IMG/VR virus record: IMGVR_UViG_3300006916_000104
Span: 1 to 41,725 of that record
Strand: one strand, 5' to 3'
Length of the DNA stretch: 41,725 bases
Source: a virus
In this document: in pieces, positions 16,209 to 35,439 of the stretch
Position numbering within the stretch: position 1 is the stretch's first letter
How the letters are laid out: each line of letters opens with the position of its first letter
Made by a program: the position numbers and the translations under genes
Notes under the pieces: model-generated
Database searches by the model: none
What the model was told of the DNA's origin: nothing
The model's input: only the letters and a program-made list of their open reading frames with translations

Positions 16209-17081
16209 TTATGTGCCCCACTCATTTTTAAATAGGGGAACTTGCAAACGATCACTGTATCTTAAGCCATTTTTCATTGCGTAGTCTGCAACTCGTCTGC
16301 TATTCATTGCATATACACTTTCTGTACCACCTACTGGCATCAAATATACATGACCTTTAAATCCAGCCAGCCTATATTCTGTGACTGCTCGCATTGCTTC
16401 TTCAAAATCATCTTCTGTTGCTACAACAAATTTAAGATATGTTGTGCCAACTTCTTCGTATCCGCATACTATTTCGGGTTTGATAGCATTAGACCATTTT
16501 TCACCACTGCAACTTAGTTTTGCACTAACTGAGAATGTAATCTCACGTTCGGGCATATCTTTTTTAAGATTTTCGTAGTGGTGTTCTTTCCAATCTTCTA
16601 AGTATTCCTTAAACTCGGGTCTAAGTTTTTGTGTACCGTTTGTTTCAAAGGTAATTTCTTTTAGACCTTTCATAAGTGGGTTATCAAGCAAATCAGGATA
16701 TGCTCGTTGCCACCCTAGTAGCGGCTCACCACCTGTGATTACTAAATGCTCGTCACGCCATTCTTTGTGTGGCAACATGTTAACAATCTTTTCTGCAATG
16801 TCATCGGTTTCCATTTCAGGACTAAGATGTCTAAATCGTCTGTCCCAACTAGCATATGAGTCGCATCCTGTAGAAACGATTGGAAGTTCTTCGTAAGACT
16901 TATACTTTGAAATATCAGTTGCTATAATATCTCGCTCAGTAGACATTTCTCCCGATTGCATACCAAACCCACCGCAAGTAAAGTTACAACCAAAGGTGCG
17001 TAAAAATACTGAAGGGACACCCATGTATCTGCCCTCACCTTGAATGCTGTAAAACAACTCTGCTATTTTAAGTTTAGCCAT
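16209..17081 (-). CDS. queE: QueE: 7-carboxy-7-deazaguanine synthase (radical SAM)
   Basis: 290 aa. QueE converts 6-carboxytetrahydropterin to 7-carboxy-7-deazaguanine (CDG). The N-terminus AELFYSIQGEGRYMGVPSVF and the LVITGGEPLL (GGEP at 117-120) are diagnostic. The cluster cysteines appear as C32-x3-C36 (GCNFTCGGFG), and the third as C73 in GCDSYASWD, which matches the usual C-D-T/S-x-Y-x-W of the family. So about 36 residues are inserted between the second and third cysteines. ATG 17081 has AGGA upstream and a sigma70-like promoter. Confidence 0.9.
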   Translation of the reverse strand: MAKLKIAELFYSIQGEGRYMGVPSVFLRTFGCNFTCGGFGMQSGEMSTERDIIATDISKYKSYEELPIVSTGCDSYASWDRRFRHLSPEMETDDIAEKIVNMLPHKEWRDEHLVITGGEPLLGWQRAYPDLLDNPLMKGLKEITFETNGTQKLRPEFKEYLEDWKEHHYENLKKDMPEREITFSVSAKLSCSGEKWSNAIKPEIVCGYEEVGTTYLKFVVATEDDFEEAMRAVTEYRLAGFKGHVYLMPVGGTESVYAMNSRRVADYAMKNGLRYSDRLQVPLFKNEWGT

Positions 17082-19742: not shown

Positions 19743-20288
19743 TTACGCACTATACCCCTCAAATCCTGCAGAGTTTGCGCCATGTTCAAAACATTCAACT
19801 GACTTAACTCTAACTGTTGGATTCAGTGCTGTACCCGCTAACTTGTCTCTGCGTAAAATTTCTTCCATCTTATCAAAAACTGCTTGTGCAAACTTTTCTG
19901 ATCCTACATCTTTCATCCAAGTAATCTTTGCAAGACCTTTCTTTTCAAGGTCTAAGAACTCTTTACGTTTAGGATCGTCTTCTGCTACTACGATTGTGTG
20001 ATCAAAACTATCTTCTAAAAACTGTTTAAGTTCTTTTAATCCACCAAAGTCCATTACCCAGTTGCGTTCATCAAGCGAATCACACTCAAATACAAGTTTG
20101 AATCCAATAGAATAACCATGCAATAAACTGCAATGCGAATGTGTGGCTCGCCATTGTCTAAAACAACAACTTAAGCCTCTATCATTGCCATATGTTTTTG
20201 TTGAGAAAAACTTTCCCTTCTTATCAGAACTAGTAGAATTGTTAATCACTTTTCTTTTTTCTTTGCCGCTTTTAAATATTTCAAACAT
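19743..20288 (-). CDS. queD: QueD-like 6-carboxytetrahydropterin synthase
   Basis: 181 aa T-fold enzyme that would turn dihydroneopterin triphosphate (from FolE) into 6-carboxytetrahydropterin for QueE. Family features are the catalytic-Cys/zinc region THSHCSLLHGYS (C53, H58), VMDFGGLKELKQFL, SFDHTIVV and the C-terminal SVECFEHGANSA. The usual LHGH zinc motif reads LHGY, so one ligand differs; nearby H50 or H52 may substitute. ATG 20288 is preferred over 20354. The promoter's -10 ends six bases before it, with a GGAG 14 nt upstream. Confidence 0.85.
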   Translation of the reverse strand: MFEIFKSGKEKRKVINNSTSSDKKGKFFSTKTYGNDRGLSCCFRQWRATHSHCSLLHGYSIGFKLVFECDSLDERNWVMDFGGLKELKQFLEDSFDHTIVVAEDDPKRKEFLDLEKKGLAKITWMKDVGSEKFAQAVFDKMEEILRRDKLAGTALNPTVRVKSVECFEHGANSAGFEGYSA

Positions 20289-20294
20289 ATTAAT

Positions 20295-20323
20295 GTTATA
20301 CTCTCCTTTCTTTCTTTTGTCAA
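20295..20323 (-). promoter_or_regulatory. Sigma70-like early promoter of queD
   Basis: Minus strand: perfect TTGACA at 20318-20323 (containing the TGA stop of the cytidylyltransferase gene), a 17-bp spacer and TATAAC at 20295-20300. The queD ATG lies six bases beyond, so the transcript may be leaderless. Confidence 0.7.
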
Positions 20324-20787
20324 CTATTTTGGTTATTTTGTGCTTCAGCAACACGTTTGCGTAAACTACTGCTACTAAAACTATGATCTCTACCGTTATA
20401 AATCACTTCAATTCCTCGGTGTTGACAAATATCTTTACCACTAAAATCTTTATCTTGGTACTCAACTCCAATGATTCTAACGTCAACGGGAAGAATTAAT
20501 AGCAAATCACACAAGTCTTGTTCTGTTTGATATACTACAATTTCATCTACGTAACGTGTAGCCGCAAGTTGTATTTGTCGTTCTACAATACTTTGAACCG
20601 GTGCATTTTTTGTATCTGGTCTATCAATTGTAGGATTAGTTTGCAATCCAGCGATCAAATAGTCACAGTGATTTTTTGCTTCACTAAGCATTGCAATGTG
20701 ACCGGCATGAAGTAAGTCAAATGTACTAAATGTTATGCCGATTTTTTTGCCGTCGTCTTTTAAATTGCGTACTTTATTAAATATCAT
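20320..20787 (-). CDS. Cytidylyltransferase-like protein (TagD/RfaE type)
   Basis: 155 aa HxGH nucleotidyltransferase. The catalytic motif HAGH is at 27-30 within GITFSTFDLLHAGHIAML. The second signature is SSSSLRKRV near residue 141. Relatives activate glycerol-3-phosphate or heptose-1-phosphate with CTP or ATP. It probably makes a precursor for a phage-directed glycan; the exact substrate is not clear. ATG 20787 lies inside the end of the oxygenase gene. Confidence 0.88.
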   Translation of the reverse strand: MIFNKVRNLKDDGKKIGITFSTFDLLHAGHIAMLSEAKNHCDYLIAGLQTNPTIDRPDTKNAPVQSIVERQIQLAATRYVDEIVVYQTEQDLCDLLLILPVDVRIIGVEYQDKDFSGKDICQHRGIEVIYNGRDHSFSSSSLRKRVAEAQNNQNS

Positions 20788-21734: not shown

Positions 21735-22415
21735 TTAACATTTACCCATTCTTGCAATGCTTAAGAACTCGTTTCTTGCCGCAGGGTCTTCTTTAAAACC
21801 GCCACCAAGACGTACAGTTACAGTAGAACTACCTGTGTCTTCGACACCTCTCGACTTCACACAATAGTGCTGTGCATCGATCATTACAGCAACGTCTTCT
21901 GTTTCTAAGATAAACTGTAGTGCATGGAAAACTTGTTCTGTAAGACGTTCTTGTATCTGAGGACGCTTTGAAAAATACTCTACGATACGATTGATTTTAG
22001 AAAGTCCTAACACCTTATCTTTAGGTACATATGCTACTGTAGCAAGGCCATCGATAATAACAAAGTGATGTTCGCAGTTGCTTTGTACGTTGACATTTCT
22101 TTCTACAACCATTTCGTTGTATTTCATTTTGTTGTCAACTGTTGTACATTTGGGGAATGCTTCGTAATCTAGTCCCCAAAAGATTTCGTTGACATACATT
22201 TTAGCAACTCTGAGGGGTGTTTCTCTAAGACTATCATCGTCAAGGTCAAGTCCTAAGACTTGCATAATGTGACTAAAAGATTTTTGGATTTCTGTGATCT
22301 TGTCTTTGCGTTCAATGCTAGTTTCAAACGTGGGCGTTTCAACTCCCATTTTAACTAGATGTTCGTGGACCTTTTGTCCTAATACAGGATCGGTTTTTGT
22401 TTTATTATATGACAT
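21735..22415 (-). CDS. folE: GTP cyclohydrolase I (FolE)
   Basis: 226 aa, the usual length. It converts GTP to dihydroneopterin triphosphate, the first step to folate and to 7-deazaguanines. Zinc ligands C114 and H117 (NCEHHF) and C185 ([12 protein letters not shown]) match E. coli C110/H113/C181, and H116 is the catalytic His. The C-terminal [19 protein letters not shown] is typical. ATG 22415 has AAGGAG upstream. A perfect T4-late box lies 64 bp upstream. Here FolE feeds QueD and QueE for DNA modification. Confidence 0.96.
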
Positions 22416-23447: not shown

Positions 23448-23638
23448 GCAACACAATCAATAGTATGTTTATTTGTAATAGTTTGAACAGTTCCACCTAT
23501 GTCGTACATAGTGATACTATACACATCATTTACAATTTTAACTGTACCTTCTTCAGGACCTTTATAAACTCTTTGTATTGTGTATTGATAAGAATTTGTT
23601 ACTGGCACCGTTGATTGTACTGATCCTACGTCATTCAT
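23444..23638 (-). CDS. Hypothetical small phage protein (64 aa)
   Basis: Beta-rich, Thr/Val-rich soluble protein with no recognised motif. Both ends are ATGA overlaps (with guaC upstream and the SGNH gene downstream), so it is co-translated with them. Confidence 0.7.
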
Positions 23639-24777
23639 TTTTCATAAACCTTGTTATATTGATTATTTACTCTAACAAAGGTAGTACACTTGCTTAAGTC
23701 TTTAAGTTTACGTGCTCCTGCGTAAGTACAGGCGCTTCTAAGACCCCCTAGAATGTCTTGTACGGTTACTTTGATTTCGCCCCTATAAGGAACTTGAACA
23801 GTTCTGCCTTCCGAACTACGATATTCTTTTAGTCCACCAAAGTGTTTAGTGTTTGCAGTATCACTAGACATGCCATAAAACTCTACAAATTTCTTTTCTT
23901 CAATAACATGATTTTCTAATTTTAGGTGCGTACCTACTTCGTACCGTACTTCATTAGTTCCATAAAATTTTGTAATAACTTCGCCGCCACCCTCATCGTG
24001 TCCAGCAAGCATACCACCAAGCATTACAAAGTCTGCTCCTGCACCAAATGCTTTTGCTACATCTCCAGCACAAGTACAACCCCCATCAGCAATGATGTGT
24101 CCACCAAGGCCATGAGCGGCATCAGCACACTCCATGATTGCGGATAACTGCGGGTACCCAACACCAGTCTTAATGCGAGTAGTACAAACACTACCAGGCC
24201 CAATACCAACTTTAACGATATCTGCTCCACTTAATATTAACTCCTCTGTCATTTCACCGGTCACTACGTTACCCGCAATGATAACGAGTGATGGGTATTT
24301 GTCTCTGACTTCTTTGACGACTCCTGCAAAACGTTCTGAGTAACCATTAGCAACATCTATACATAGATATTTAATACCTGCAACTTTCATCACTCTGTTT
24401 AGTTTTTCAATATCATCATCAGTGATACCTATACTCATGGCAACATGCTCTCGTCTTGTGCCATTTGTTTCTAAAAAGTATTGTGTTAATTGTTCTACAC
24501 TATAAGTTTTAACTAAACAGGTAAACAATCCCAAATCAGCAAGTTTGTCTGCCATATCAAAAGTCCCAACACCGTCCATATTACTTGCCATAATAGGGAT
24601 ACCAGAGTATTGTGCTGATTCAGGTCTAATTGCTTCCATACTCATATCTTCGGGAATATAGTTTCTGAAAGTGTACTCACGTTCTAACTGTACTTGTTTA
24701 CGTGATCCTAGTGTTGATCTTTTTGGCTTAATTAATACATCTGAAAAATCTAACTTAATCTCAGATTCAATTCGCAT
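23635..24777 (-). CDS. guaC: GMP reductase (GuaC)
   Basis: 380 aa TIM-barrel enzyme of the IMPDH/GMPR family, reducing GMP to IMP and ammonia with NADPH. The N-terminus [20 protein letters not shown] is specific to GMP reductases, and no CBS domains are present. The active-site loop is [11 protein letters not shown] with catalytic C198 (E. coli C186). [20 protein letters not shown] and [16 protein letters not shown] bind phosphate and base. The C-terminus is about 30 residues longer than in bacterial GuaC. ATG 24777 has GGAG 8 nt upstream. It could rebalance purine pools or use GMP made by the Gpt-like enzyme. Confidence 0.94.
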
Positions 24778-25714: not shown

Positions 25715-26911
25715 TTAATATTTGTTTTCTCTAGTATGTTTTCTGTAATCGGTTGACATACGCAGCCATTGCTCACCTTGACCTTCAAGGATATCACAAA
25801 TTCTATCAATAGTTCCATCTGTCCAATCACTGATTGTACCTTGATGATAAGGTTCTGTTAATAGATGATTAAGTTTGGATTCAACATCGTCTAATGACCA
25901 TGGAATATACATTCGTTTATGATCGTTTGCAAATGTTTCGGGGAAACTGCGATATGCCGGGAACAAAACATTACAACCTAATGCATCCGCTTCACTAACT
26001 GTATTGCTAACCCAGTCTTGCAATGCACAGTTGAATACTACACGGCTATCGTTTACTAAACGATAGTAATCATTTTTCTTTAAATCTTCGTATACTACCA
26101 ATTTATTTTCTTTTTGTAGTTTACGTGTACGTTTCATATACGAATCGTTGTTGCTACGTAACTTTGAGCCAGAGAATACAGCAAATTCGATACCATGATC
26201 TTTACCATATTTTTTATACCACTGCTCAATTAGGTCCATATAAAAGTCTGGTTGTTTTTCCTGATCCCAACGTGCAGAAAAGCCAACTCGCATTTTACGT
26301 TCATGGAAATCTTTAATTGGTTCTAGTTCTAATAGTCGTTGTCTTACTTCGTCTTTGCCAAATGCAAGACCTGAGATATTGTAGATAGGTGCGTCCCAAC
26401 CTGCTATCTCCATATGTGCAACCATTTCTTCGTTAGTTGCTAACACACCACCGTTAGTTATTTTACAAATCTCATTAACCATTTGCTCATACAAGCCCAT
26501 CCACTTGCCCATTCCCCATACGTGAACAAAATCATCAGGGTCGATAGTTTGTGCTAAACATCTTACAAATACACGTGGACGATATTCAGGATCAATTTGA
26601 TTTATAATATATGGGAGAGATTCAATACCGGGCTGAAACATATCTTCAAAGTAAATTACATCTTCGTGTGTAACATCACCTTCTTTCATCATTTTAACTA
26701 ATGACATAAGTTGTGACATGCCAAAGAATGATCTACCGTGTGCGTCTAGCACTTGACCTGTTGAAATTGCTTGATCAGTTGTAAGCAATTCACCTGGAAC
26801 ATTGACATAATCAATTCCACGTTTATCAAATACACGTGTGTTCCATTCAGTAAGTTGTAATGTATATCTAGCCTCGTAAGGCTCTAGTCCCATATAAAAT
26901 AATTTTCTCAT
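25715..26911 (-). CDS. GT-B glycosyltransferase-like protein (398 aa)
   Basis: Residues 200-380 look like the nucleotide-sugar-binding half of a GT-B enzyme: RVGFSARWDQEKQPDFYMDL, a central region, then FNCALQDWVSNTVSEADALG in the position of the GT4 E-x7-E motif. The N-terminal half is unassigned. It starts with MRKLFYMGLEPYEARYTLQL. ATG 26911 overlaps the nucleotidyltransferase-cupin stop as ATGA, which suggests that gene supplies the sugar donor. Probably phage-specific glycan synthesis. Confidence 0.78.
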   Translation of the reverse strand: MRKLFYMGLEPYEARYTLQLTEWNTRVFDKRGIDYVNVPGELLTTDQAISTGQVLDAHGRSFFGMSQLMSLVKMMKEGDVTHEDVIYFEDMFQPGIESLPYIINQIDPEYRPRVFVRCLAQTIDPDDFVHVWGMGKWMGLYEQMVNEICKITNGGVLATNEEMVAHMEIAGWDAPIYNISGLAFGKDEVRQRLLELEPIKDFHERKMRVGFSARWDQEKQPDFYMDLIEQWYKKYGKDHGIEFAVFSGSKLRSNNDSYMKRTRKLQKENKLVVYEDLKKNDYYRLVNDSRVVFNCALQDWVSNTVSEADALGCNVLFPAYRSFPETFANDHKRMYIPWSLDDVESKLNHLLTEPYHQGTISDWTDGTIDRICDILEGQGEQWLRMSTDYRKHTRENKY

Positions 26912-27750
26912 TGCTCACCTAAAAATACACGTTGAATATCGTCTTCTGTACAGTTGTCACCGAACTGAATTTCAATGACTTTTAAATCAACGTTTTGTTC
27001 GTTAACTAACTGATGCCATTCATTGGTTAATACCCAAGTGTGTTGATGTTTATAAAAGTTACCTACAAACACGCCTTGTTGCTCTCTACGAGGTTCGTTT
27101 GGATATGCTACAGAATAAACAGTTGCAGTACCCTCTGCTACAAACCAAAACTCACTACGATGTTCATGGCGTTGCATACTTAATTTTTCTCCGGGCTTAA
27201 CAGTCAATTCTTTTAGTTTGACTTCTATGCCCCAATTATGCAAAACTCTGTAGTAACCCCAATCACGCTCTGTTTTTGGATCAGTCCATTCTTTTAAAAT
27301 CCAAGAACTTGAGTTTGATTTGCTTCCTCCGACACCAAATACAAATGTTACATTAGGATCTGTCTCAGTAACAACGGTTTCGGGTATATTTTTTAATGTA
27401 CGATCTCCACCATTAGCAAATGTAACATGTGCGTTAGGGTACATTTCTCTAACTTTAAGAATCGCATTAATAGCAGTATCGTCAGAGTCATCAAAAACGA
27501 TTACTTCATCCACATCCTTGAGTTCTTGCATAATGCGAACACGTTCTTCCTGTGGCATGAAAGGCCTACCTTTTTTACGGGCAAGCCAATCATCGCTGTT
27601 TACTCCCACGATAACTTTATTACCGAACCAAGTAGATTCGGAACCTAGAGTTTTCGCCGCTTTGATGCAGTCTAAATGACCACTGTGCAGAGGATCAAAC
27701 CCACCTGTAACCAGAACAATATTATCTGGATTTTCTGATTCGTTTGCCAT
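26908..27750 (-). CDS. Fusion of HxGH nucleotidyltransferase and mannose-6-phosphate isomerase-like cupin
   Basis: 280 aa. Residues 1-150 are an RfaE-type nucleotidyltransferase with HSGH at 22-25 (GGFDPLHSGHLDCIKAA). Residues 165-280 match the cupin of type II phosphomannose isomerases: LSMQRHEHRSEFWFVAEGTA, the late His in NEWHQLVN, and NCTEDDIQRV. Together they could isomerise and activate a sugar phosphate. This pairing is not the standard one; ManC pairs the cupin with a GT-A pyrophosphorylase. ATG 27750 has GGGAG upstream. Confidence 0.85.
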   Translation of the reverse strand: MANESENPDNIVLVTGGFDPLHSGHLDCIKAAKTLGSESTWFGNKVIVGVNSDDWLARKKGRPFMPQEERVRIMQELKDVDEVIVFDDSDDTAINAILKVREMYPNAHVTFANGGDRTLKNIPETVVTETDPNVTFVFGVGGSKSNSSSWILKEWTDPKTERDWGYYRVLHNWGIEVKLKELTVKPGEKLSMQRHEHRSEFWFVAEGTATVYSVAYPNEPRREQQGVFVGNFYKHQHTWVLTNEWHQLVNEQNVDLKVIEIQFGDNCTEDDIQRVFLGEQ

Positions 27751-27977: not shown

Positions 27978-28376
27978 TCATTGTTGAAGATACTCTATCT
28001 CGCAACCGTTTTCGTTGTCTTCGGCTACGGAGATTTTTACATAACGATTAGGATACTGTTCTTGTATCGTAACCGCTAATTCATCTGCTATCATTTCACA
28101 TGATTTGTGATCTAGGTATAATACTGGTGTACTGCTGTCTACTTCTGCATACAGTCTTTCTAACCAGCGTTTGAATTGAATGAATTCAATGTCTCTGTCG
28201 TTGTGAAACACTTCGATCCATACTTTAAAATGAAAAATATGTCTGTGAGGGAATCCCAAGAATGATACATCGTCCCAATCGCCTGTTGCTAGTTTAGGAT
28301 CTGTATCAGCACCAGGATACATATGTACCCCTTCTTTTTGAAACGTTACCCAAATAGTTCTCATTGCTTTACTCAT
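27978..28376 (-). CDS. Second QueD-like (PTPS/T-fold) protein
   Basis: 132 aa. The pattern follows the T-fold of 6-pyruvoyl/6-carboxytetrahydropterin synthases: His-rich strand FPHRHIFHFKVWIEV (H44, H46, H49) where zinc would bind, then RDIEFIQFKRWLERL in place of the DFGDLK helix, then KSCEMIADEL in place of the SEN/SCE segment, then KISVAED. It is clearly divergent from the queD at 19743. It may be a second pathway enzyme, an inactive partner, or something else. ATG 28376 is used; ATG 28364 is also possible. Confidence 0.7.
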   Translation of the reverse strand: MSKAMRTIWVTFQKEGVHMYPGADTDPKLATGDWDDVSFLGFPHRHIFHFKVWIEVFHNDRDIEFIQFKRWLERLYAEVDSSTPVLYLDHKSCEMIADELAVTIQEQYPNRYVKISVAEDNENGCEIEYLQQ

Positions 28377-28406: not shown

Positions 28407-29099
28407 TCAATCATTTTGGGCAGTAGCATTTTTTAAATAAAAATCTACCTCTTGTCCTGCAACAAGGTGACCAGCACCAAAATCAGATTGTTCTTGCTCA
28501 TTCCATAATTTAACAACTTTTGGATCTTGTTCTTGTAATATAAAGGCGTTTCTTTTCTTCCAACTTGCCATATGCGTTTGGTCCCCGTCAATCGAATCAC
28601 AGAATCGACCCTCTACTACATCTTCAAACTCAATGTTAGTAACGTTAGGTACATTAGAATCGACCCAAACCGGATCATGTTTACAAATGTTTATCATAAA
28701 CTTAACTTTGTCTATGTGATTGTCTTGTAACATTTTTTGACCATTAATTTCTATGTAATAATGTCTAAGGAATCTATAAAATCTACTTTTGTCTGTTTGA
28801 GTAGTAACATTAATAACCCTCTCAAAGATATCTAAGTTAGGAATAATCTGTGGTGGTTGATGTGTTGCAAAATATTTGCCTTGAGTCCAGTTTTTTTTTA
28901 CTAGCATTTCGGTTTTGCTAATCCAGTCTTGGGTGTGATCAGGTAAAACAAGATGTAAAAAACTTCCGTCGTTTGATGCTTTTAGGATATGATTCCACCG
29001 AGATTGAATTACTGAGGTTTCAAATGTACTTCGTACACCGTTTAATAAATCAGATACAAGGGCGCCCGCACAATATGACCCCACTGTAACTAAATTCAT
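28407..29099 (-). CDS. Hypothetical protein, weakly sulfotransferase-like (230 aa)
   Basis: N-terminal MNLVTVGSYCAGALVSDLLN could be a P-loop-like strand-loop-helix similar to sulfotransferases, and IFERVINVTTQTDKSRFYRF could be the matching phosphate-binding region. These matches are weak. ATG 29099 overlaps the dpdA stop as ATGA, so it is co-translated with the DNA transglycosylase and may act with it. Confidence 0.65.
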   Translation of the reverse strand: MNLVTVGSYCAGALVSDLLNGVRSTFETSVIQSRWNHILKASNDGSFLHLVLPDHTQDWISKTEMLVKKNWTQGKYFATHQPPQIIPNLDIFERVINVTTQTDKSRFYRFLRHYYIEINGQKMLQDNHIDKVKFMINICKHDPVWVDSNVPNVTNIEFEDVVEGRFCDSIDGDQTHMASWKKRNAFILQEQDPKVVKLWNEQEQSDFGAGHLVAGQEVDFYLKNATAQND

Positions 29100-30646
29100 T
29101 CAAGCACCTCAAGCATAGCATCATCACTGTCTTCAATAACTTCATCTGTATTTACTACCGGAGTTTCTTCTACAGAAAATAGTTGATCAAACATAGTTCC
29201 TGCATTTACGGTTTTTTTACCCGAAAATCCCTGTGATCCTGATTGCATTTGCATCCAAAATCTGCTGTACTTGTCAATCATTTCTAGGCTTTTGGTTCTG
29301 TCTTTGAGACTAAAGATTTCGTCTACTACTTCACCAAATCTAACACGTTCAAAAGTCTCGTTCATAAGCATTGCTGGAACAACACCCTGTTCGTATCTAC
29401 GATTGGCTTCTTGTACAGCAAACATATGTTGATATACGTTGTGTGCTTGTAGTAAAGTATAACTTAGTGTATCCCAACTTGTTTTAGTTTCTTTGCCGTG
29501 TTGTCCCAAGAACCCGTGACCACGATAACAAAGGTCCTTTAGAACCATTGCTTCAGTGACGGGTGAATCTGTAAACAATTCGTGTATCTTATCTTGTATA
29601 ACTGCATCACTAAACTTACGTGTGTCGTTAGCATAGTCTTTATTTTCAGCAGTCTTCTCCATAGAGTAAGTCCACTTCTTATTGTGTTCGATGCTATTAT
29701 TAAAGTATGCTAATCCTTTAGCCGCACCAAAGAAAGGTGATGCACAGTCAAATGTAATTTGAAAGTTTGGATTGTGATACTTTCTGACTGCTCGTTGAAT
29801 GTCACTGAATAGAACAGCATACTCTAAGATACTTGTACCCAAGCAGTGAACTAAGTCATGCTTGCCTGGCTCAAGTAATCCATCGTGTATGATACCAACT
29901 AAACGTTTGAGTGTTAGATGAATATCGATTTTATTTTGACCACCAAATGCCCAACCATTAAAGTGAGTGTTTGGATAGATGTTAGGGTCACAATACTTCT
30001 TCATTTCTTCATACCATTCATCAGACTGAGTATGATTCAACCCTTGCAATACATTAAGAAACTTACATCTACCATCACGGTTGTTAATAAAGTATTCGTT
30101 ATTGATGTGAGTAGCATAGACTGCTTCTTCGATTGTAGAAATGCCGTGTTTGTCTAGCAAGTGTTTGTTACGCAGAGTTTGAGTAGGTACGTCTAAACAC
30201 ATACCATAATCCATGTACTCATCCATCCACTTAAGAACAAGTTTGCGTTGCTTCATTGCTTTGGGACAGTTAGGATCTTTCCAGTCTGCTGGCCATTGAC
30301 CTTTCATAATTTGGAATCCACCAGAGTCTCCTAGCATAAACGTACCTTCTTCTCGGTCACGTATAATGCTTTCTGCTGGAATATCTTTAGTAGTGTCTAA
30401 GTCAGCATGTCCTGCAGAATACAGTCCCCACTTGTAAGTATACAAACCTTTCTTAGAATTTAAAAAGTTTAGTGATTCTACATCACCATTAAATCCTGCA
30501 GGAATCCTTTCTGCTGGAAAGTAATTCTCACCTGCTCGTTGCTTCCCTAATCCCGTAATAAAGAAACTACTAACAGCAGGCAAGAATAATGCCCAGTCAG
30601 GGTTTTGTTGGGCAGATAAATCTATTCTATTCATTTGTTGTTCCAT
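29096..30646 (-). CDS. dpdA: DpdA-type DNA-guanine transglycosylase
   Basis: 516 aa TIM-barrel protein of the tRNA-guanine transglycosylase superfamily. The general acid/base Asp is D107 in MLGDSGGFQI (TGT: SDSGGFQ). The nucleophile is D300 in TFDCASPFF (TGT: MFDCVMPTR). NVLQGLNH (198-205) and GWAFGGQNK match the VQGG and GG base-pocket loops. The CXCX2C zinc site of tRNA TGTs is not seen. With FolE, QueD and QueE in the same phage, a DNA-modifying DpdA is far more likely than a tRNA enzyme. Residues 486-491 (FDQLFS) repeat the clamp-binding tail of the polymerase. ATG 30646 lies inside the SGNH gene end; ATG 30634 is an alternative. Confidence 0.9.
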   Translation of the reverse strand: MEQQMNRIDLSAQQNPDWALFLPAVSSFFITGLGKQRAGENYFPAERIPAGFNGDVESLNFLNSKKGLYTYKWGLYSAGHADLDTTKDIPAESIIRDREEGTFMLGDSGGFQIMKGQWPADWKDPNCPKAMKQRKLVLKWMDEYMDYGMCLDVPTQTLRNKHLLDKHGISTIEEAVYATHINNEYFINNRDGRCKFLNVLQGLNHTQSDEWYEEMKKYCDPNIYPNTHFNGWAFGGQNKIDIHLTLKRLVGIIHDGLLEPGKHDLVHCLGTSILEYAVLFSDIQRAVRKYHNPNFQITFDCASPFFGAAKGLAYFNNSIEHNKKWTYSMEKTAENKDYANDTRKFSDAVIQDKIHELFTDSPVTEAMVLKDLCYRGHGFLGQHGKETKTSWDTLSYTLLQAHNVYQHMFAVQEANRRYEQGVVPAMLMNETFERVRFGEVVDEIFSLKDRTKSLEMIDKYSRFWMQMQSGSQGFSGKKTVNAGTMFDQLFSVEETPVVNTDEVIEDSDDAMLEVLE

Positions 30647-31286
30647 ATAATTCTTTATATTTTTCTATGATGTGGTTTGCAATAATTTTATTACCTTTAA
30701 CATTTAAGTGTCCCCTCAAAAACTGTCCGGGTACATGCTCAGTAACAAAACACCCATCATCGCCCGCTAACTCAATAAACGTTGTCGATATTTCGGCACT
30801 ATTGTCAAGACCACGCTCATAATGCTCCGGTATTTCTCTACTAGAAAATGTTTCAATAAAATCAAAGTTCATATATTTTAACATATGTTTTATTGAAGTA
30901 AAGTGATATCGGAAAATATCTTCATTGTAGTTTCTGTTGTAATGTTGTGTTATATAAATTTTGTGTATAGGCATTTCAAAATTTATAGTAGTAGGTTGAT
31001 TTTCTGCCTCATACCACATTTCTCTGCGATCACAATCAGTATAACAAACGATTACTAATGGATTTAATCCTTGCTGTTTGTATTCTAACATGTTAGTTGT
31101 TATTGTTCTTGCAATGTAATCGTTAGAACATCCAGGGACAGCATGATTGACTAGTGGCAACTGCAATTCGTCTGCTACCAGTTGACTATATCTATTTTCC
31201 ATAGTTACTTCGTTGTGCAGATCCTCTCCTTGACCGACACCAAAAGTATAACTATCGCCTATGAAATAAATGAAGTCATACTTCAC
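30627..31286 (-). CDS. SGNH/GDSL-like hydrolase (219 aa)
   Basis: Block I IYFIGDSYTFGVG carries the nucleophile Ser in a true GDS. PGCSNDYIAR is block II with its Gly. The C-terminal GHLNVKGNKIIANHI occupies the block V position, but Asp-x-x-His is not conserved. The start is GTG at 31286, 10 bp past the clamp stop, with only a weak ribosome site. Likely an esterase, substrate unknown. Confidence 0.8.
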   Translation of the reverse strand: MKYDFIYFIGDSYTFGVGQGEDLHNEVTMENRYSQLVADELQLPLVNHAVPGCSNDYIARTITTNMLEYKQQGLNPLVIVCYTDCDRREMWYEAENQPTTINFEMPIHKIYITQHYNRNYNEDIFRYHFTSIKHMLKYMNFDFIETFSSREIPEHYERGLDNSAEISTTFIELAGDDGCFVTEHVPGQFLRGHLNVKGNKIIANHIIEKYKELYGTTNE

Positions 31287-31296
31287 AGATTATACT

Positions 31297-32028
31297 CTAT
31301 TTTGCTTGAGCAGGTAATAGATATTGATACACTGAATATCCACTGTCTACAGTGATTTCAGCCGCACCTTGATCAGAAATACGCACAGTCTTGTCACCTG
31401 GCAAATCCATAATAGACAAGAATACTTTAACAGGCCACATCCATGATCTAGTTAGTGTACCAGACACACCCGGCTGAAATACAAAGTTGCCTGAGTGAGT
31501 AGAAGGATCACCAAAAAATACTTTAAGATCACCGTTTTCTGTCTTAGCAGTAAAGTTTAATTCTTCTGCGTTTGCTTGTGCCTGCATCTTTAAACGCATG
31601 ATACCAGCAATGCTAGGCTCAAACTCTACGTCCCAAGAGGCACCTTTGAAAGTTACATTTCTAACTTTTTCTTCAATGATTGCTTTAGACATCAAACGAT
31701 AATCGTTAATAAAGTCTCCTGCATTAGTCGCAAAGTGAATTGCTACAGGAACATCCTCACCGTCTTTTTGTTGCTTTGTCATCGAAATACTAGCATTTTC
31801 TTTATAAACATCAAAACCCAAGATAGTTTTGAGTTTAGTTAGATTGGGCATACCAAACGTACCAATAAAATCTGCTACTGGAGTTTTAGTTGTGCCGTTA
31901 ACAACAACAGATTTGTCTTCTGCGATTGCAGAAATCTGTGTTTCTTGTGCAGTACCAACAATCTTAACTAGGTCAATAATACCTAGACCATGTGTGTACT
32001 GAATTAAGTCTTGCAAATTATCTTTCAT
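31297..32028 (-). CDS. Sliding clamp (gp45-like)
   Basis: 243 aa, near the 228 of T4 gp45. The clamp holds the polymerase on DNA and, in T4, also activates late transcription. The family pattern includes the N-terminal helix MKDNLQDLIQYTHGLG, ASISMTKQQKDG and the last strands TVRISDQGAAEITVD. ATG 32028 has GAGGAT upstream and its own sigma70-like promoter 40-70 bp upstream. It lies just downstream of the polymerase, similar to the T4 45-43 cluster but without clamp-loader genes 44 and 62. Confidence 0.88.
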   Translation of the reverse strand: MKDNLQDLIQYTHGLGIIDLVKIVGTAQETQISAIAEDKSVVVNGTTKTPVADFIGTFGMPNLTKLKTILGFDVYKENASISMTKQQKDGEDVPVAIHFATNAGDFINDYRLMSKAIIEEKVRNVTFKGASWDVEFEPSIAGIMRLKMQAQANAEELNFTAKTENGDLKVFFGDPSTHSGNFVFQPGVSGTLTRSWMWPVKVFLSIMDLPGDKTVRISDQGAAEITVDSGYSVYQYLLPAQAK

Positions 32029-32067
32029 TGTATATCCTCTTAATGTATTTAGGTGCAATTAGTATGT

Positions 32068-32096
32068 AATATAACATGGGTTTTTACGTAAGTCAA
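32068..32096 (-). promoter_or_regulatory. Sigma70-like early promoter of the sliding clamp gene
   Basis: Minus strand: CCTTGACTT with TTGACT at 32091-32096, a 17-bp spacer and TATATT at 32068-32073, in the gap between polymerase and clamp. Confidence 0.7.
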
Positions 32097-32104
32097 GGTA
32101 TAAT

Positions 32105-34810
32105 TTACCCAAACGAAAACAATTGATCAAACGTTGAATTAGTGTCTGTATTAGCACGTAAGTCCCAGTTAAGAACGCCCAACAAATTACTGATCTTTTC
32201 GTCTACAAGTGTAGACTCCATTGCTGTATCATCAAATGGGAGTTCTTGGAACCATTCGGGCAGTCTAAGTTGATCTGTTGGATACGCAACACTTGTGTAA
32301 CCTAGCGGATTTGTTTTAAGTTTGCATACAATAACTTTAAAGCCATCCATGATTTCCATTGAATAGTTGTCACCATGCATACGTTTTAGTGTATTCCAAT
32401 TCATTGCCGCCCTTACGTGACCCGGCATGTTTGCTCTACCCGTTTTTGATTTCTTTTCTAATTGAGTGTAATACGTTAGTTTGTTTACACCTTTAGGCGA
32501 ACCTTTTGTCCAAGGATCCTGTTTTGCAAGATCAATTTTAAATGCTTTGATTTTTTCGATAATATCTTCACGGCTTTTTCCGCCAAGAGCCATTTCTAAC
32601 ACTTCCATCAAAAAGTCTTGTATATATTTGGGAGTATCTGCTCTTTTCAAATCCAAGCCCATTGCTTTGACTTTGCCTTGTTTGCCGTCTATGTCAGTGC
32701 GTTTACCTTCATTGTCAATTACGTTGATAGCATATCTTTTCTTAGTAATAAACAAACCACGATCACCAACAACTTCTCGACCTGCTTTGATGATTTCTCC
32801 TTTTGCACGTGGACAATGAAATGCTAGTTCCATAAATGCAGGGAAACTATCTGAAGTTTGATCTGCAATGCTATCGTATAACTGAATAGACATTTCTTTA
32901 GACCAATCTTCTTTAGCAACCTCATTTTTTAAGATGGGCCAAGCAGAGAAATAACATGAGTCAGTATCACCATAAATCATTGCCTCGCCTGTGTGATCAT
33001 ATTTGCCTGCGATTACTTCGTTTACATATGCTGACATGTGCTTTGTGATACAACGACCTGTTAGAGTTACAGACTGACCAATACGTTTATCATAGAATCG
33101 ACAATGCTCGTTAAGAAGTGCACCATATGCTGAATTAAGCAAAATCTTACGCACTAACTGACGCTTGTCCCAATACTCTCGGTCTGCATCTGTTGTAGAT
33201 TCTCTGAGTTTTTTCTGCATAACTTTACGATCTGAATACCATTTTGATAATAGACCAGGAATCACGCCCTCTTGATCACCTCTAAATACAGTACCGTTTG
33301 CACTAAGAATCAGTGCGTTGTTAGAATCAAATATCCACTTCCATATCTCAGCCGCACTCTTTTGTTCGGATCTACCGTCTTCGTAGTCAACAGTCAAAGT
33401 CGTGCCTCGTTCTTGGTTCATAATCGCAGTATACTCTAACGAACCAAATAGTCCTTCCCACAACATACTGCCTTCTACAATATCTCCCACTTTATATCTT
33501 GCTTTTTCTTTAGCAAGTTCAACACCTTTTTCTTCCATATATCTTTCAGTTAGTGTTTGTCGAATCTGTGCAACGATTGTTTCTGGAGCCATGTTTAATG
33601 CTCTAATCGCCGACGGATACAGAGAGTTAATATCGATAGAGCCGATCCATTCATGCATGCCTTGTTTTGGAGTTGCTACATATGCTCCTGCCGCTTGTTG
33701 TTCTCTTGTTACGTTTAGATTTTTTCTATGCTTGTCGGGAACAACTAAGCCACGCTCATGTGCTTCGTTCATAATAGCCATTTCGATCATAGCCACAGAA
33801 CCCATTACAGTTGGCAACAACACAGTATTTTCATGTGCTAGTTGATTTGCAAGTTCTAAGAATTTAAGTTTATTGTGAATCTTTACCAATAGCATAACGT
33901 CTTGCCTGTTATACTCAATAAACGTTTTGAAGTCTTTGTTATATAACTGATCTAGTGTGCCTTCATAATCCGTTTTCTTATCGCCAACTTCCATTTCACC
34001 GATTGCATCTAGTTTGTAACTGTGACGAGATTCATAGTTGTATTTCTTATACAGTTGCAAATAGTCTAAATGAATACGACCTACAAGATCAAACGTTTCT
34101 TCTTCTTTGCCAAACCGTTCATATGTTCTTTTCTTAGGATACTGCCCTAACAAACAAAATCGGCGTGTGTCATCTTTACTCATAACTCTAGTAACACGAT
34201 TAACCATATACGGAATATCGTATCCTTCTGAGTTCCAGCCTGTCAATACATCAGCATCTTCGATCAATGAAAAGAAGGCATCAAACAATTCTTTTTCTGT
34301 TCTAAACAAGATAGTATCAGGAAAGTCTTTGATAGCGTCCTGTGCAGTTTCATACGTCATGTGCTTTGGGGGAATAGCAAGACAGACTAGTTGATCTAAC
34401 CAATCTAAGTAAACACCAACAGCCGTAACAGGATTAAAAGGATCGCTAGGAGACGAAAATCCTAATTCAGGATCAAAATCAACCTCGATATCAAAAAATG
34501 CTGTATGAAGTTTTGGAGCTTCTACGCCCAAATAGTTTTCACTGAGACATCTGAAAACAACGTTTACGTCACTTTCAAATGTTTTACGTTTGGTATGAAT
34601 CCTGCGTTCTTTTTCAAACTCTGCTTGCTTTCTAGTAGAAAATCTACTAACAGGATCACCAAACAAAGATCGATACTTGCCTTTAGGATCTTCGTAATAC
34701 ATAACAAAATTTGTTGGATACTCTTTGAATTCCCGAACGCCGTCAGGATTTCTTTCTACAACATGAATTCTGTCTGTTTGTTTATCGTGGATTGCGTCTA
34801 TATAACTCAT
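32105..34810 (-). CDS. DNA polymerase, family B (gp43-like)
   Basis: 901 aa, the same size as T4 gp43 (898). The 3'-5' exonuclease has Exo I FFDIEVDFD (D107, E109), Exo II GWNSEGYDIPY (D198) and Exo III YNRQDVMLL (D304). Polymerase motif A is DINSLYPS (D393), motif B KILLNSAYGAL (555-565) and motif C IYGDTDS (D615, D617). The C-terminus ends FDQLFSFG, matching the clamp-binding tail of T4/RB69 polymerases. ATG 34810 overlaps the SGNH stop as ATGA. It is the phage replicative polymerase and must copy or tolerate the modified guanine. Confidence 0.97.
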   Translation of the reverse strand: MSYIDAIHDKQTDRIHVVERNPDGVREFKEYPTNFVMYYEDPKGKYRSLFGDPVSRFSTRKQAEFEKERRIHTKRKTFESDVNVVFRCLSENYLGVEAPKLHTAFFDIEVDFDPELGFSSPSDPFNPVTAVGVYLDWLDQLVCLAIPPKHMTYETAQDAIKDFPDTILFRTEKELFDAFFSLIEDADVLTGWNSEGYDIPYMVNRVTRVMSKDDTRRFCLLGQYPKKRTYERFGKEEETFDLVGRIHLDYLQLYKKYNYESRHSYKLDAIGEMEVGDKKTDYEGTLDQLYNKDFKTFIEYNRQDVMLLVKIHNKLKFLELANQLAHENTVLLPTVMGSVAMIEMAIMNEAHERGLVVPDKHRKNLNVTREQQAAGAYVATPKQGMHEWIGSIDINSLYPSAIRALNMAPETIVAQIRQTLTERYMEEKGVELAKEKARYKVGDIVEGSMLWEGLFGSLEYTAIMNQERGTTLTVDYEDGRSEQKSAAEIWKWIFDSNNALILSANGTVFRGDQEGVIPGLLSKWYSDRKVMQKKLRESTTDADREYWDKRQLVRKILLNSAYGALLNEHCRFYDKRIGQSVTLTGRCITKHMSAYVNEVIAGKYDHTGEAMIYGDTDSCYFSAWPILKNEVAKEDWSKEMSIQLYDSIADQTSDSFPAFMELAFHCPRAKGEIIKAGREVVGDRGLFITKKRYAINVIDNEGKRTDIDGKQGKVKAMGLDLKRADTPKYIQDFLMEVLEMALGGKSREDIIEKIKAFKIDLAKQDPWTKGSPKGVNKLTYYTQLEKKSKTGRANMPGHVRAAMNWNTLKRMHGDNYSMEIMDGFKVIVCKLKTNPLGYTSVAYPTDQLRLPEWFQELPFDDTAMESTLVDEKISNLLGVLNWDLRANTDTNSTFDQLFSFG

Positions 34811-35439
34811 GCTTTCATCTTATCATAAATTGCTTCTAGGATCAATGCCGCTTGAGAGGCGTGGCTACCCAAACCTGGATGTGCACCATCTAATGCTTTG
34901 TCTTTGTGTACTATTTTCATATTATTGATAAAGTTATCTAACTTAAGCAATTTGGGTTTGGCTTCTTTAAGACCTCCCGGGATATTTAAAAAACTTAAGT
35001 TTTTTATGTTCTGTGAATTTAGCAAAAGTTCTATATGTTGTATTGCTAACCAGTTATCCCAATATATCTTTTTGTCCCAATGCTCAAAATTTAAATCTTC
35101 TAGTAAAATCTTTTTGTGTTCAGGGTCATATTGTGGTAAAATATACCCTTTGCTGATTTTATCAGACATTTGATAAAAACGAAAACGTGAAAAATAAGAA
35201 TATCCTAAGATAACCAAATCATCAGAATTAAATTTGGTTCTTAATACATTCATTAATATTTGAAAATTCCCTGAACCCGGTTCAGATAAGTTTAAACACT
35301 CATAATGCAATTCGTTTGCGATTAATTGCGGCCAAGCAAACTTACTAGGTTTATCACCAGGGTGATCAGGCGGCACATGGCAGTCAGGGAGCCCATGACC
35401 ATATGTATATGAACAGCCAAACGCCACCAGTCTGGGCAT
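34807..35439 (-). CDS. SGNH/GDSL-like hydrolase (210 aa)
   Basis: Block I is VAFGCSYTYGHG with Ser about residue 10. Block II is EPGSGNFQI. Block V is LDGAHPGLGSHA with Asp and His in the expected D-x-x-H spacing, so a catalytic dyad or triad is plausible. ATG 35439 overlaps the DsbA-like gene stop as TAATG. It sits between replication genes, as do the other SGNH genes here. Confidence 0.82.
   Translation of the reverse strand: MPRLVAFGCSYTYGHGLPDCHVPPDHPGDKPSKFAWPQLIANELHYECLNLSEPGSGNFQILMNVLRTKFNSDDLVILGYSYFSRFRFYQMSDKISKGYILPQYDPEHKKILLEDLNFEHWDKKIYWDNWLAIQHIELLLNSQNIKNLSFLNIPGGLKEAKPKLLKLDNFINNMKIVHKDKALDGAHPGLGSHASQAALILEAIYDKMKA

Follow-up and report, generated by a model that had tools for sequence, protein, structure and literature searches.

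How a phage enzyme that exchanges guanines for 7-deazaguanine might find newly made phage DNA is the question raised by a stretch of 41,725 nucleotides of virus DNA, record IMGVR_UViG_3300006916_000104 of IMG/VR (hereafter the window). Its minus strand carries genes for a DpdA-like protein of 516 residues (29096-30646), which is a candidate DNA transglycosylase of the tRNA-guanine transglycosylase (TGT) fold, for a predicted sliding clamp of 243 residues (31297-32028, counted from the ATG) and for a family B replicative DNA polymerase of the T4 gp43/RB69 type with 901 residues (32105-34810). We consider it highly likely that this DpdA exchanges bases in the manner of a TGT while tethered to the PCNA-like clamp of the phage. 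The segment F486-D-Q-L489-F490 on its C-terminal linker would be a copy of the clamp-binding tail of the polymerase, and its Phe, Leu and Phe side chains would fill the hydrophobic pocket in which a clamp subunit takes up peptides. On a ring offering several of these pockets, polymerase and DpdA could sit side by side or alternate, and guanines of new phage DNA would be exchanged soon after synthesis. We infer the binding of DpdA to the clamp, the subunit stoichiometry and the timing of modification; camouflage of the DNA is probably coupled physically to its copying.

The hexapeptide FDQLFS occupies residues 486-491 of DpdA (29174-29191, minus strand) and residues 894-899 of the polymerase (32114-32131, minus strand), where only FG and the stop codon follow. 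The sequence-only reading had stated that the two proteins alone share it, and this was exact, as a six-frame search of the window found FDQLFS nowhere beyond these two copies. The polymerase copy is the C-terminal clamp tail, whose RB69 counterpart has been co-crystallised with its clamp (1b8h). The DpdA copy, a putative clamp-binding motif, lies after the barrel in an extension that had been described as flexible and acidic; it is indeed acidic and mostly of low confidence in AlphaFold2 (pLDDT <50 at residues 469-479 and 493-516), with a short predicted helix at 482-489 over the motif. The acidic tail beyond the motif (29099-29173) is variable or absent in relatives. DpdA thus has what marks the C-terminal epitopes that bind T4-type clamps, namely a short hydrophobic and acidic motif on a flexible tail, in common with the cognate polymerase. 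The motif stands in the context G-T-M-F-D-Q-L-F in DpdA and N-S-T-F-D-Q-L-F in the polymerase. A canonical PIP box (Qxxhxxaa) was rejected, because Gln is missing at the expected place and Leu-Phe stands instead of two aromatic residues, and the motif is therefore called PIP-like.

It is evident from relatives of the locus that the motif belongs to these two proteins. Relatives were retrieved by patterns without the motif; in scans of viral contigs, single DpdA queries from Pseudomonas phage PA5oct or Vibrio phage found nothing and an alignment of eight sequences did. Among 53 protein families with at least eight members in the fetched loci (written below as L with a number), polymerase and DpdA are the only ones that carry the motif near the C-terminus. 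The strict pattern, scored within the last 65 residues, was present in 197 of 229 polymerase open reading frames (ORFs; 86%), in 156 of 196 DpdAs (80%) and in about 0.06% of other proteins. A position weight matrix derived from polymerase tails gave scores of 12 bits or more to 70% of the 172 DpdA tails; shuffled tails scored as high in 0.6% and other proteins in 1.2% of cases. Several polymerase ORFs (L102, L145/L146, L174/L175) break off in intein-like sequence, and in PA5oct a gene for a Hef-like homing endonuclease interrupts the polymerase.

In an alignment of 45 relatives F490 never varies, and F486 and T484 are conserved to at least 90%, within a surrounding tail that cannot be aligned; F-x-x-L-F is retained in DpdA tails despite divergence of the linker. 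In L007, L013, L164 and L185 DpdA ends directly after the motif. In L118 (...PMFNELFQLGT) and L167 (...SFNKLFEVL) the internal copy is lost and a new one stands at the extreme C-terminus, and L042, L043, L047 and L060 have likewise lost the internal copy and show weaker C-terminal NDIF, NLF or DLF endings. Mapping on a tree of the DpdA core gave about 10 changes between internal and terminal positions. Such conservation with relocation is typical of a selected short linear motif, not of a folded segment.

The sequence-only reading had named missing co-variation in relatives as an outcome that would refute it; such co-variation was found, and conservation is much stronger in the motif than in its linker. 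A clade whose polymerases have FFEF instead of LFxF has likewise FF in DpdA. The DpdAs of L224 and L225 end exactly in FFEF, and the first hydrophobic residue changes jointly, L with L and M with M (polymerase/DpdA LQAFFEF/LNEFFEF and MQQFFEF/MNEFFEF). Moreover, VDDLF of the L289 polymerase is matched by VNDLF of its DpdA. Of two isolated phages, Vibrio phage 2.275.O has a polymerase ending in NNTDLFDW and a DpdA ending in NNNDLFGW, and PA5oct has HFDSLFGW and SFNSLFDV, respectively. The PA5oct DpdA is 34% identical to that of the window, with the same gene order of polymerase, clamp and dpdA. It is encoded by EST35_0316 (L206 5995-7617), annotated as hypothetical protein, and the clamp by EST35_0314 (L206 4912-5658), annotated as structural protein (phrog_12062, E 4.5e-40). 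Among 83 representatives, cognate tails were more alike than expected (permutation p 5e-5).

Several observations weigh against clamp tethering of DpdA or limit its support. The association of the tails among the 83 representatives remained when core distance was controlled (partial Mantel r 0.37, p 0.0002), though this control is an incomplete phylogenetic correction. The switch from LF to FF is a single evolutionary event, and an independent-pairs test of it had one pair only and no power. Several polymerases have lost the first Phe (for example VSDLF, ASDLF, LETLF) while the partner DpdA retains it, and co-variation is therefore partial. A minority of DpdAs are without the strict motif (L078, L268, L273/L275, L288), several have Ser or Ala at its first position, and in the FF-clade members L223/L231/L299 its spacing differs. 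In addition, Vibrio phage nt-1 has a T4-type polymerase, and its DpdA2 is without the motif. DpdA2 is likewise a divergent TGT-like phage DNA transglycosylase, but it has 464 residues and a tail without a clamp-type motif. Its profile match to the family of the window DpdA, over the catalytic region, depended on the alignment (hhalign probability 79%, E 1.6e-5 with alignment A3; probability 5% with A1).

The polymerase matched phrog_262 (E 4.6e-201) and RB69 gp43 (1clq, E 4.6e-59). For DpdA and the clamp ORF, sequence searches of PDB, Pfam and NCBIfam were uninformative, and fold comparison was therefore needed. For the clamp ORF no Pfam family was matched, it belongs to PHROG_12062 ('unknown function'), and its alignment had no significant hhalign match to T4 gp45; the clamp assignment therefore rests on the fold. 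The AlphaFold2 monomer (pLDDT 91.7) matched PCNA proteins in Foldseek (E ~1e-9) and shows the two-domain clamp fold over its full length (Z 17.8 over ~220 of 243 residues), by which 31297-32028 is predicted to be a PCNA/gp45-type sliding clamp, as had been proposed. The DpdA model (pLDDT 74, pTM 0.80) superposes on the archaeosine TGT 1iq8 (Z 16.2, VIA), all 50 top rows being TGTs, and matches human QTRT1 in Foldseek (E 5.6e-5). The aspartates of GDSGGFQ (D107) and FDCASP (D300), which we take to correspond to D102 and D280 of TGT, are invariant in the 45 relatives and in eight divergent ones. The fold bears out the earlier naming of this protein as DpdA. The window also encodes, on the same strand, proteins of 7-deazaguanine synthesis: FolE, GTP cyclohydrolase I of the precursor pathway (21735-22415; PF01227, E 1.3e-60), a QueD-like 6-pyruvoyl tetrahydropterin synthase (19743-20354; PF01242, E 7.9e-15) and a QueE-like radical SAM protein (16209-17081; phrog_2076, E 1.5e-53; PF04055, E 3.8e-7). 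QueC was not seen in the window, the record being a fragment. From the fold, the motifs, these three genes and published work on DpdA (PMC6884629), we infer that the window DpdA acts on DNA.

The precedent for a polymerase-like tail on a second protein comes from T4. The C-terminal tail of RB69 polymerase was crystallised in the clamp pocket (1b8h; PMC3012046), which gives the polymerase tail its structural meaning and covers the polymerase only. Three T4 proteins, gp43, gp55 and gp33, bind the clamp gp45 through their tails, which are freely exchangeable; the clamp motif of gp55 is carried by a variable linker and still functions from an internal position in a fusion (PMC2988020). T4 gp43 ends in KASLDFLFG and gp55 in SPSLDFLYEAND; as in our locus, a second protein repeats the hydrophobic and acidic polymerase tail almost exactly (SLDFLF/SLDFLY) after a variable linker, and in T4 this second protein is a clamp ligand. 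A polymerase-like tail marks a clamp-binding protein in T4, and the DpdA tail should accordingly bind the phage clamp, although gp55 and gp33 are transcription factors and the client here is a DNA base-exchange enzyme. It could be argued that the motif binds another replisome protein common to polymerase and DpdA, such as the clamp loader or the single-stranded DNA-binding protein, since co-variation shows only that both tails track the same partner. However, the polymerase here is a homologue of gp43, whose tail binds gp45 as that of RB69 is seen on its clamp in the crystal, and a clamp gene lies near both genes in nearly all loci, which makes another partner very unlikely.

Even less probable is that the motif is a structural element of DpdA, a helix packed on the barrel or a dimer contact, whose likeness to the polymerase is coincidental. 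The short AlphaFold2 helix over the motif would fit such an element, but confidence is low in this region, and the motif shifts by tens of residues relative to the barrel, survives replacement of the tail and co-varies with the polymerase tail.

Equally little credence is due to the possibility that DpdA binds the clamp as a regulator, its tail competing with the polymerase and slowing or marking replication without targeting modification. Identical tails would compete for one pocket, and there is a parallel in T4 alpha-glucosyltransferase, which binds and co-purifies with gp45 according to a passage in PMC13216743 that cites Sommer 2004. On that passage, this enzyme is likewise a phage DNA-modifying enzyme associated with the sliding clamp, but expression, rather than clamp binding, mainly sets how much of the glucosylation it performs (PMC13216743). 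A tether may therefore tune the timing of modification rather than its total amount. On the other hand, the linkage of the base-exchange enzyme to precursor genes favours targeting of the modification. The T4 enzyme also differs in that it adds glucose to hydroxymethylcytosine and has no evident copy of the polymerase tail, while DpdA exchanges the whole base and has an exact copy. T4 alpha-glucosyltransferase (a-gt, L305 21625-22827) contains YEFLY at residues 378-382, which is reminiscent of LDFLY in gp55 and could be where the enzyme touches the clamp.

That the match arose by chance, or by a recent copying event from the polymerase gene, can be practically dismissed: a bare shared 6-mer is weak evidence, as six hexapeptides are common to different genes of the window (three being overlapping windows of one 8-mer), but one copy here is the functional tail of the polymerase, the expectation is 3.3e-4 for FDQLFS in the remaining window genes (from residue frequencies) and 0.004 for 6-mers that the 15 C-terminal residues of the polymerase share with any other gene, the synonymous codons differ (TTT GAT CAA TTG TTT TCG and TTT GAT CAA CTA TTT TCT), which excludes a recent DNA copy, and the motif is kept in about 80% of 196 DpdAs whose cores diverge by up to 73%.

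The putative docking of DpdA on the clamp, as first proposed from the letters of the window, is therefore supported by conservation, co-variation, both predicted folds and the T4 precedent. That base exchange follows the fork, as was also proposed, is one possibility; new DNA also retains clamps, and those left on finished DNA may capture DpdA instead. Clamp-tethered DNA-modifying enzymes are known already; for DpdA the tether is apparently undescribed, as claimed before, since we found no paper linking DpdA to a sliding clamp in the open-licence literature that was searched. Such a tether would be a concrete mechanism by which phage base-exchange enzymes find new phage DNA before host restriction acts; if true, it couples DNA camouflage to replication. 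It would also explain why dpdA adjoins the clamp and polymerase genes, and it predicts that loss of a few tail residues lowers modification with the active site untouched. Moreover, PHROG_12062 is identified by its predicted fold as a sliding clamp family and deserves that name, and the DpdA of PA5oct-like jumbo phages, so far a hypothetical protein, now has one.

A second DpdA subfamily, the 9g type (L306 3007-3960; L314-L321; L322-L401), was not among the tblastn matches of the window DpdA. Members of this type (Queuovirinae) resemble our locus in having a TGT paralogue, FolE and QueD genes, a dpdA adjoining clamp and polymerase genes and a C-terminal LF motif, but the protein is shorter (~300 residues), its motif is of the QxxLF type and its clamp is of another family (phrog_947, 'DNA polymerase processivity factor'). 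[LFMI]F occurs within the last five residues of 72 of 76 distinct 9g-type DpdAs, versus 2.0% of other ORFs in these loci; among representatives at 75% identity the ending is found in 48 of 51, with the consensus [DE]-Q-[MIQP]-[GE]-L-F. A C-terminal QxxLF resembles the bacterial beta-clamp motif. Of the 76 loci, 73 yielded a clamp ORF, in many cases right beside dpdA. Escapers of the modification-dependent system GrwAB that map to dpdA are on record (PMC12137116). The 9g polymerase is without the tail motif of DpdA, and the argument for this type is therefore one of motif, conservation and gene neighbourhood only. No terminal LF motif was found in the distant DpdAs of Cracklewink, Allegro, phiFN37 and phi38:2. 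Clamp tails thus seem to have arisen separately in the two subfamilies and to fit, in each, the type of clamp that goes with it, and the scope is wider than that of the sequence-only reading, as the 9g-type subfamily also ends in a clamp-type motif. We regard it as fairly likely that clamp docking is general to phage DpdAs, in at least two subfamilies (F-x-x-L-F with a PCNA-type clamp and terminal QxxLF with another clamp), and that a further protein of phage 2.275.O may dock as well. If docking is general, 7-deazaguanine camouflage would be a replisome-coupled process across many phages.

This further protein (L208 7726-8838) is amidoligase-like (PF12224, just below the cut-off) and is encoded directly after dpdA; its N-terminus, MFNELFDF, is a copy of the clamp-type motif, by which it may be a second clamp-docked tailoring enzyme. 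When both ends of the proteins from the fetched loci were scanned for the motif, no further conserved client family emerged, only single proteins. These include an HNH endonuclease ending in the motif (QMFTSLFEEV; L267 6311-6715), a protein of unknown function ending in HFNSLFEFA (L035 11713-12129) and a protein ending in STFQNLFAYDN (L281 11557-12141), MutH-like by eye and with no Pfam hit.

Scans of the window for Rfam families and tRNA genes gave no hits. Between clamp and DpdA lies, on the minus strand, an SGNH/GDSL-like hydrolase (30627-31286; PF00657, E 3.5e-4, below the curated cut-off). Together with the hydrolase-like ORF 34807-35439, whose N-terminus looks similar, it brackets the clamp-polymerase pair, and of the two only 30627-31286 gave this sub-threshold GDSL lipase match. 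The neighbourhood of dpdA also contains a small protein of phrog_17812 (27978-28376; unknown function), and a similar ORF is located after the clamp in Sinorhizobium phage Phosso (L217). The ORF 26908-27750 encodes a cytidylyltransferase-like domain fused to a mannose-6-phosphate isomerase-type cupin. Finally, 23635-24777 encodes a phage IMP dehydrogenase/GMP reductase, which possibly supplies guanine nucleotides to the deazaguanine pathway.

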